A program made the position numbers and the translations under genes. This document shows positions 46,349 to 49,300 of a stretch of 64,000 bases of DNA, piece by piece; the first letter of the stretch is position 1, and every line of letters begins with the position of its first letter. The notes beneath the pieces were generated by a model, which saw nothing but the letters and a program-made list of their open reading frames with translations, had not been told where the DNA came from and made no database searches. Location of the stretch: the NCBI GenBank assembly GCA_034670405.1, contig JAXDDX010000010.1, forward strand, positions 6,731,501 through 6,795,500, in the 5' to 3' direction. This DNA comes from Hoplostethus atlanticus. Taxonomy: Eukaryota; Chordata; Actinopteri; Trachichthyiformes; Trachichthyidae.

Positions 46349-49300
46349 CTGGGGGAGGGAGGGGGAGAGAGAGAGAGAGAGAGAGAGAGAGAGAGAGAGA
46401 GAGAGAGAGAGAGAGAGAGAGAGAGAGAGAGAGAGAGAGAGAGAGAGAGAGAGAGAGAGAGAGAGAGAGAGAGAGAGAGAGAGAGAGAGAGAGAGAGAGA
46501 GAGAGAGAGAGAGAGAGAGAGAGAGAGAGAGAGAGAGAGAGAGAGAGAGAGAGAGAGAGAGAGAGAGATGGCTAGTTGTTCTTGTTCTTTGGTGTCAGTA
46601 AATGCGACAGGATGCATGCCATTACTGGGAGGTGATGGCGGACGGATATTTGACAGACTATAGAATATTTCAGAGCCATTCATCTGCCCACTATGACGTC
46701 TCTGCTGACTGGACCTCTCTGTTCTCTAGTGATGTTTCCACATGGCTCTGGTCGTCGTCGTCCTCTCTGCTGCATTATCAAACGCACCTTGCTGAATATC
46801 AAAGAGTAATGAAACATGCGGTTTCAGCCTGCATCGTTCCAGCAGATATAGTGGAGATTAGCTTACCAGCTAGCTAACGTTACACCATGGAGAGGGATGC
46901 CGAGTGTCCGGGAGGATCTCTCTCCTCAATTTTTCCAAATTTCTGCTCATTCAGCTCATACAACCCTAAATCTTCTGTATTTTGTCAGGGGCGAGTAGGG
47001 CAAAGAATACAAAGAATTATTTTAGCCTGCTGAAATATCTGCAATGTTGAATGTATGTCCAGTATTGATAGGTTTCACCATATAGAAGTCATACAAATAT
47101 GTTTACAGCGTGATTTAGTGTTGAATATCTCTTTTAACAGTCAGGCAGTGAATCCGCCTGACAACAGCTGCCTCTGCTTTCCCAAGGACAAGCATTGGAG
47201 GCTGTTGGGGGTGTGAGCATGCATGTGTCTGTGTGTGTGTGTGTGTGTGTGTGTGTGTGTGTGTGTGTGAATCACTGTGCATATGTGGGACTGTGCATGT
47301 GTGAGCATGCATATGTGTCAGTGTACATGCTTGTGCGACTGCATTTGCAAGTGTGCATGCATGTGTGTTCATGTGCATGAGCGTGCATGTGCGTGACCAT
47401 GCATGTGATGTGAACGTGCACTTGTGTGGGCATATACAGGCAAGTGTTTGCTGCAATTCTCAACTCAGGCTAAGGAGTGGGCAGCAGGGAGCAGCAGGGA
47501 GTGAGCAAGCATCCCACTGATCCTCAGTCTGCTCATTAAATAACAAGCCGGCTGCATTTCCAGGCCTGTTAGCAGATATTTAACACAACATTACCCCTGG
47601 GAAACCAGTGGAACAGGTACAGCTATAATATTGATCTGATATGTTTAGTAGAGTGATGTGTGTTTTTTTACCTGGGTGGTTATACATAAGGTATTTTGTT
47701 ACCTAGTTACAGTTACAACTAAGGTGTTACAGAGTATTTTGTTACCTGGTTACGGTTACAACTAAGGTGTTACAGAGTGTTTTGTTACCTGGTTACGGTT
47801 ACGGTTACAACTAAGGTGTTACAGAGTGTTTTGTTACCTAGTTACGGTTACAACTAAGGTGTTACAGAGTGTTTTGTTACCTGGTTACGGTTACGGTTAC
47901 AACTAAGGTGTTACAGAGTGTTTTGTTACCTGGTTACGGTTACGGTTACAACTAAGGTGTTACAGAGTGTTTTGTTACCTGGTTACGGTTACAACTAAGG
48001 TGTTACAGAGTGTTTTATTTCCTGGTTACGGTTACAACTAAGGTGTTACAGAGTATTTTGTTACCTAGTTACGGTTACAACTAAGGTGTTACAGAGTGTT
48101 TTGTTACCTGGTTACGGTTACAACTAAGGTGTTACAGAGTGTTTTGTTACCTGGTTACGGTTACAACTAAGGTGTTACAGAGTGTTTTGTTACCTAGTTA
48201 CGGTTACAACTAAGGTGTTACAGAGTGTTTTATTTCCTGGTTATGGTTACAACTAAGGTGTTACAGAGTATTTTGTTACCTAGTTACGGTTACAACTAAG
48301 GTGTTACAGAGTGTTTTGTTACCTGGTTACGGTTACAACTAAGGTGTTACAGAGTGTTTTATTTCCTGGTTACGGTTACAACTAAGGTGTTACAGAGTGT
48401 TTTGTTACCTGGTTACGGTTACAACTAAGGTGTTACAGAGTGTTTTGTTACCTAGTTACGGTTACAACTAAGGTGTTACAGAGTGTTTCGTTACCTGGTT
48501 ACGGTTACAACTAAGGTGTTACAGAGTGTTTTGTTACCTGGTTACGGTTACAACTAAGGTGTTACAGAGTTTTTTGTTACCTGGGTGGGGTTGTACACAG
48601 GGAAGTCCTCCACCGGAGGGATGAGGCCCTGGGCGATCAGCTGACCGTAAGAAGGCGGTGCCTCTCTCTGAACAAACTCCGCCTCCAGGCGAGTCATCTG
48701 AGTCTCAAAGGCTCTATAGTGGGGGGAGAGAGAGAGACAGAGAGAGAGAGAGAGAGAGGCAGTAGAGAAAGAGAAGAGGGGGGAAAGAGAGAGCTAAGGA
48801 GAATGAAAAGAGAGAGAAGTGAAGCAAAGACAGAGAGAAGAGTTAGAGCTGATGAGCACAGCTCAACAGTACATGCAGACCAAGCGGGATGCCTTCGTTT
48901 AGCAAAGCACATTTGGCTTTGCTGAATGTTGCCTTCGATGGGACCTTGACTCATTGATTGTACAAAACAGTTCAGTGGGCCTTCGCCTCCAGGGACGAGC
49001 TCTTGCGGATGGATGGATTATTGGTAAGTGTAGCGTTTGCTATATTTTGACGTACTAGGTTCACAGAAATGTATTTAAATTAATTCATCAGGACAAGAGA
49101 CCTCGGCTCTCCATTAAAGCCATGGCTTTAATGTTGTGCACAAGGTCAACAGTGGAGCGCACAACAGGCCTGCTGAAAGGTCAGTGGCTGTGCTGTCTGG
49201 CACAGGAGGCATGCTGCAATACCAACCTGACATGGTTTACCTCTTTAGACATATAGGGAACATTCATGACTCACGTCCAGCGGCTACCTAAACCTTATGT

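Follow-up and report, generated by a model that had tools for sequence, protein, structure and literature searches.

When a minisatellite starts at the splice donor of an exon and repeats the donor word from unit to unit, how did such an array arise and what does it do to splicing? This question is raised by lrp3 of Hoplostethus atlanticus, which we studied in a window of 64,000 nucleotides of genomic DNA (contig JAXDDX010000010.1, positions 6,731,501 to 6,795,500; all coordinates below are those of the window). On the coding (minus) strand, the array starts at the exon 6 donor of lrp3 and lies inside intron 6. Tandem Repeats Finder (TRF) described a 43-bp unit in 20.3 copies at 47694-48584, with 93% matches and a period of 43, the copy number being that of one window of one assembly. 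This agrees with an initial annotation of the DNA, which had named a 20-copy, 43-bp minisatellite in lrp3 intron 6. The start at 47671 given there includes a degraded last unit with its AG/GT (slash, splice point), while the edge found by TRF is 47694.

The array and its host gene

A query of the joined exons matched 1408 proteins (120 listed). The best match listed was LRP3 of Diretmus argenteus (P0001), a member of the Trachichthyiformes, with 95% identity and 100% of the query covered; LRP3 of Centroberyx gerrardi and then of Myripristis murdjan came next among the matches listed. Searching the window with Diretmus LRP3 by tblastn located seven exons in order, from 60256 down to about 45540, and the exon that adjoins the array is number 6. 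Both the gene and the exon number assigned initially are thereby confirmed. Pfam searches of five translated stretches gave LDL-receptor class A domains in two and CUB domains in three, one of them just below the cut-off; the exon 7 stretch had no domain match. The features at this end of the gene are as follows.

48581..48713, minus strand: lrp3 exon 6, 133 nt, ending YNPTQ (tblastn with Diretmus LRP3 P0001, residues 495-542; translation)
46349..48580, minus strand: lrp3 intron 6, 2232 bp, lying between codons (sequence, translation)
45908..46348, minus strand: start of lrp3 exon 7 (ASVLQN...), in the frame ending PHPWSE (translation, tblastn)
46365..46568, minus strand: (CT)102 tract just before the acceptor of exon 7 (TRF, sequence)
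47694..48584, minus strand: minisatellite, 43-bp unit, 20.3 copies, three of the units being 49 bp (TRF and splitting at the donor word)

The (CT)102 tract is perfect on the coding strand, and expanded repeats thus stand at both ends of intron 6. In exon 7, the match to Diretmus LRP3 stops at 45920 in frame -1 and resumes at 45933 in frame -2, next to a run of C (window 45920-45933). The exon 7 frame of the window stops early at PHPWSE, and Diretmus residues 678-803 match the other frame only. This frame change is either an assembly error or a real allele.

Each unit of the array contains four GTAAC words. The three 49-bp units start at 47978, 47929 and 47837 (region 47789-47978); the second and third are separated by a unit of 43 bp. 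Each carries one GTAACC more than the other units, which amounts to a second period of slippage within the unit. A blastn search of the unit against the window outside 47600-48600, at E values up to 10, returned only 10-12-base matches; in the genome at large the unit may belong to a dispersed family of repeats. A 24-base piece of the unit had no match in viral and prokaryote contig collections, which are little informative for a fish.

Donor words and the products expected from decoy use

Cutting the units at the donor word on the coding (minus) strand gave 22 places: 11 read CAGGTAACA, one of these being the real donor at 48580, six TAGGTAACA and three CAGGAAATA, with a single CAGGTAACG at 48494 and a single CAGGTAAAA at the far edge, 47671. 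The first unit opens at 48580 with GTAACA, which serves as the canonical donor of exon 6, an exon backed by tblastn. Of the 20 unit starts that follow within the array, 17 keep AG/GT, all in the same orientation, and ten match the real donor in all nine bases from -3 to +6; one further AG/GT decoy stands at the far edge. The initial annotation had counted up to 17 decoys, the number that we find inside the array, and had rightly set the real donor at 48580 with the later words on the same strand; its tallies of the donor words are correct apart from the omitted CAGGTAACG at 48494.

48572..48583, minus strand: real exon 6 donor, CAG/GTAACAAAA (sequence; join of LRP3-type proteins into a form of ASVLQN)
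48529..48540, minus strand: first decoy donor, identical to the real one over nine bases and 43 nt downstream of it (sequence; equal U1 duplex energy)
48554..48580, minus strand: read-through frame VTKNSVTP followed by TAG, common to all decoy products (translation, sequence)

Pairing with U1 gave duplex energies of -8.0 kcal/mol for the real donor and the CAG decoys, -6.4 for the TAG words, -4.5 for the destroyed words and -11.6 for the consensus. The real donor, at -8.0 against -11.6, is therefore of no more than moderate strength, and ten of the decoys match it. With the real donor set aside, 13 of the 146 GT sites of intron 6 are at least as strong, 11 of these 13 in the array; in the whole window, both strands and the array included, the figure is 151 of 8253.

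Because the TAG stop at 48554-48556 lies within the first unit, every decoy would yield a product ending in VTKNSVTP. The reading frame thus yields the truncated product proposed initially, YNPTQ followed by VTKNSVTP and a stop. Counted from the stop to the new junction, the distances for decoys 1 to 4 are 16, 59, 102 and 145 nt. The rule for nonsense-mediated decay places the limit at a stop about 50-55 nt before a junction, and from the distances we infer that decoy 1 alone probably escapes decay. Its use would give a stable mRNA, with the stop 16 nt before the junction, for a receptor whose tail is cut after YNPTQ and VTKNSVTP. Deeper decoys, where the stop is at least 59 nt before the junction, would send the transcript to nonsense-mediated decay.

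In three units, a change from GTAACA to GAAATA destroys the donor and at the same time creates an AATAAA.

48358..48363, minus strand: AATAAA in a unit with a destroyed donor (sequence)
48229..48234, minus strand: AATAAA in a unit with a destroyed donor (sequence)
48014..48019, minus strand: AATAAA in a unit with a destroyed donor (sequence)

These three (48358, 48229, 48014) are the only AATAAA on the coding strand of intron 6, where 1.1 would be expected under a first-order model. Each is followed, at plausible distances, by CA and a TTAGTTGT stretch. Judged by these letters, their role as poly(A) signals would be a lead rather than a finding.

Variation among the units was counted over 19 interior units, setting aside the six columns that the 49-bp units displace. 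Of the other columns, six are variable (-8, -3, +2, +5, +6 and +10), and four of these belong to the donor word, which takes up 9 of the 43 positions (P 0.012). When +2 and +5 are taken as one event, three of five fall there (P 0.054); both P values are post hoc and refer to all 43 columns. Variation is thus greater in the donor word than in the rest of the unit, and the word is not being conserved, a point against the donors being maintained as a series. The two nearest decoys are intact in bases -3 to +5.

Origin of the repeat unit

We compared the units with the end of exon 6 in alignments anchored at the splice point, using as controls the CAG places in the window (2782) and shuffled sequences. 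The consensus interior unit scored 11 against the exon tail, a score reached by 227 of the 2782 CAG places, by 139 of the 639 CCAG places and by 1110 of 10000 shuffles; with simpler scoring, 138 of 2782 places and 1129 of 20000 shuffles did as well. By direct comparison, the likeness of the interior unit to the exon tail is therefore within chance (227/2782 controls, 1110/10000 shuffles) and lends the junction origin no support by itself. The far edge behaved differently.

47668..47691, minus strand: far edge, degraded last unit, 20 nt like the last 22 nt of exon 6, then GTAA (anchored alignment)

Its score of 25 was reached by none of the 2782 CAG places, none of the 639 CCAG places and one of 10000 shuffles. 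The simpler scoring gave a tie at one of 2782 CAG places, none among 37 AGGTAA places and one among 20000 shuffles. By eye, over 22 nt, the exon reads CCCTGTGTACAACCCCACCCAG and the far edge CCTTATGTATAACC--ACCCAG, that is, three transitions and a 2-nt gap; the interior unit has CCTTAGTTGTAACC at the exon-tail position. The intron side of the far edge begins GTAAAAAAACAC and is weakly similar to the intron head, the score being reached at 46 of the 495 GTAA places and at 95 of the 7990 GT places.

The far edge resembles the exon tail beyond the controls, which makes amplification of the junction the best reading. The end of exon 6 runs on into a form of ASVLQN in 118 of the 120 listed LRP3-type proteins (of 1408 matches), and the exon, conserved in this way, is the likely source. 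On these letters, a unit made of 22 exon-derived and 21 intron-derived bases, best kept at the edge and altered inside, would be the natural reading, and we regard a local origin from the exon-intron junction as likely. The junction origin proposed in the initial annotation is upheld by the far edge (0/2782 controls, 1/10000 shuffles) and fails for the interior units (227/2782, 1110/10000). The same division applies to the pairwise similarity of unit and exon 6 on which that proposal had been made to depend: it exceeds the controls at the far edge and stays within chance inside.

We further characterized the intron head in relatives with a query in which the exon 6 reading frame was read on into the intron. 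It gave 145 short ORFs crossing the equivalent donor, 120 of them listed, some of which we take to be LRP12-like and LRP10-like. The residue right after the last exon residue is V, as a GT donor would give, in all 120 listed ORFs (of 145). The reading of the array, in the form VTKNSVTP, is absent from these 120, a sample from which near relatives may be missing. VTKN and NSVTP are likewise absent among the 120 listed of the 1408 long protein matches. The fish-like heads V-x-HSHT and VLHSVT (P0130) are slightly like the interior reading VTKHSVTP. For a comparison of heads, 36 of the 120 listed ORFs passed a fish lrp3 filter and ten cyprinid-like ones were dropped; 22 of the remaining 26 are distinct, and 21 were scored after one of under four residues was left out. 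A likeness of the intron half of the unit to the intron 6 heads of other fishes gained no support: with VTKHSVTP the score was reached in 122 of 1200 permutations, and with VTKNSVTP in 129 of 1200.

Two predicted proteins among the matches stand apart. P0094, an LRP3-like protein of Sinocyclocheilus anshuiensis, is without the exon 6 sequence and has different letters before ASVLQN, possibly through a gene-model error. P0093, isoform X3 of Chanodichthys erythropterus, continues from exon 6 as NPTQ/VCQYDIEFQLR. The letters VCQYDIEFQLR are those after the donor in the read-through ORF P0123, and to judge from them P0093 may come from an annotation carried past the donor into intron 6 of that fish.

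Known parallels and competing readings

The initial annotation knew of no described case with this layout, a statement contradicted by the intron 18 VNTR of human ABCA7, to which IFI6 comes close. In ABCA7, the first unit supplies, with its first GT, the canonical donor of exon 18, and the 25-bp unit is present in about 12 to about 427 copies, a number that varies between people (PMC5954066). Use of the donor one unit further in adds 25 bp and leads to a frameshift, a premature stop and decay, as shown on RNA; retention of one unit accounts for about 2 +/- 1% of transcripts, a figure that is the second of two given there for frameshifts and is taken to be that of the next-donor event (PMC5954066). 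The premature-stop transcripts rise under cycloheximide, and the effect that depends on array length is skipping of exon 19, not decoy use (PMC5954066). The lrp3 array likewise opens with the real donor and repeats donor words in the same orientation with each unit, but its unit is 43 bp rather than 25 bp and it lies in another gene and another lineage. The far edge in lrp3 is exon-like, whereas the accessible part of PMC5954066 does not mention an exon-derived part. We conclude that, by its layout, the lrp3 array is a donor-anchored intronic minisatellite of the already known ABCA7 type.

The minisatellite of human IFI6 (6-16, G1P3) reportedly has a 12-bp unit near the donor consensus. Two of its downstream repeat units serve as donors, which results in three mRNAs (PMC4526556), and the title of Turri, Cuin and Porter 1995, given in the same source, names multiple splice donor sites produced by this minisatellite, a paper also cited in PMC2572611 and PMC3618361. 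Repeat units carry donors in both genes; unlike those of IFI6, the lrp3 units have the weaker word CAG/GTAACA and are candidate donors from sequence alone. In the Rogers model of intron gain, tandem duplication of a segment with AGGT forms a new intron within an exon (PMC4974935). Tandem copies of an AG/GT segment multiply splice signals here as well, but lrp3 intron 6 is old, because the join is common to orthologous proteins, and the growth was in its length alone. A new intron is ruled out by the shared join in 118 of the 120 listed LRP3-type proteins (of 1408) and by the V in 120 of the 120 listed ORFs (of 145). Repeats at exon-intron boundaries have been discussed for human segmental duplications (PMC2812944). 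The accessible text of a paper on fish minisatellites (PMC2688266) does not contain '43 bp' or '43-bp', and a literature search combining LRP3, tandem repeat, intron and splice returned no title on such an array.

We propose that a short stretch across the junction of exon 6 and intron 6 was tandemly duplicated and that the array then grew through slippage or unequal exchange. The intron side alone would have been free to drift, with interior units homogenised and exon 6 held by its coding function. The real donor would now head a row of sites, and in ten of the others the nine bases would give U1 no means of telling them from it. The real site probably still takes most of the splicing and the first decoy, at +43, probably a small share, by analogy with ABCA7, and the functional effect of the array would be low. 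As a whole, this account of junction duplication, an ABCA7-type array and main use of the real donor is the one that we favour, with somewhat less assurance than the local origin taken by itself. Its chief competitor, which we hold to be rather unlikely, is an intronic minisatellite of unrelated origin that was inserted, or that grew from simple sequence of the GTAAC type, and abuts the donor by chance; the word CAGGTAAC readily forms next to repeats of GTAACC, and the copies of the donor would then be meaningless. The four GTAAC words per unit, the extra GTAACC in three units and the chance-level results for the interior unit against the exon tail and for the intron head against relatives would all fit such an origin. 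It leaves the exon-like stretch of the far edge to coincidence, at a score above all 2782 controls (one tie with simpler scoring), and the window outside 47600-48600 holds only 10-12-base matches to the unit. The periodicity also reaches into the last four exon bases, a weak point, as array and exon overlap in TRF (end 48584) by CCAG alone.

Two further readings give the decoys a function or a cost. In one, the decoys together with the AATAAA of the donor-less units would form a regulated switch that ends the mRNA in intron 6 and yields a short-tailed LRP3. The only AATAAA on the coding strand of the intron do lie in the three donor-destroyed units, followed by CA and TTAGTTGT, all routes would use the stop at 48554-48556 and give the same protein, and the predicted Chanodichthys isoform P0093 reads past exon 6 as NPTQ/VCQYDIE. 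Yet the three units are probably copies of one event, against 1.1 AATAAA expected (first-order model), the donor words vary most (four of six columns, three of five events) and the array is absent from the 120 listed read-through ORFs (of 145), so that we consider such a switch very improbable. A version tuned by copy number, with equal decoys interspersed among three donor-less units bearing poly(A) signals, we would rate a shade lower still; if it were true, the balance between full-tail and short-tail receptor would be set by how long the array is and how its units are ordered, and U1 at the decoys would restrain the intronic poly(A) sites. The opposite view, to which we give the same very low credence, is that selection has been silencing the decoys, the TAG and GAAATA changes being steps that remove competing donors. 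The concentration of variation in the donor word and the weakening of U1 pairing from -8.0 to -6.4 and -4.5 would be in line with it, but the two nearest decoys, expected to be the strongest competitors, are intact in -3 to +5, which argues against silencing, and the event-level P is 0.054, post hoc.

At present the lrp3 array counts as a feature of the sequence for which a parallel has been described in humans, and it suggests that arrays of the ABCA7 type arise outside humans. It offers a natural case of how the spliceosome chooses a donor when identical sites recur in 43-nt steps. If the decoys are used, all of them would give one truncated LRP3 tail, and the effect on the receptor would be readable from a single isoform.
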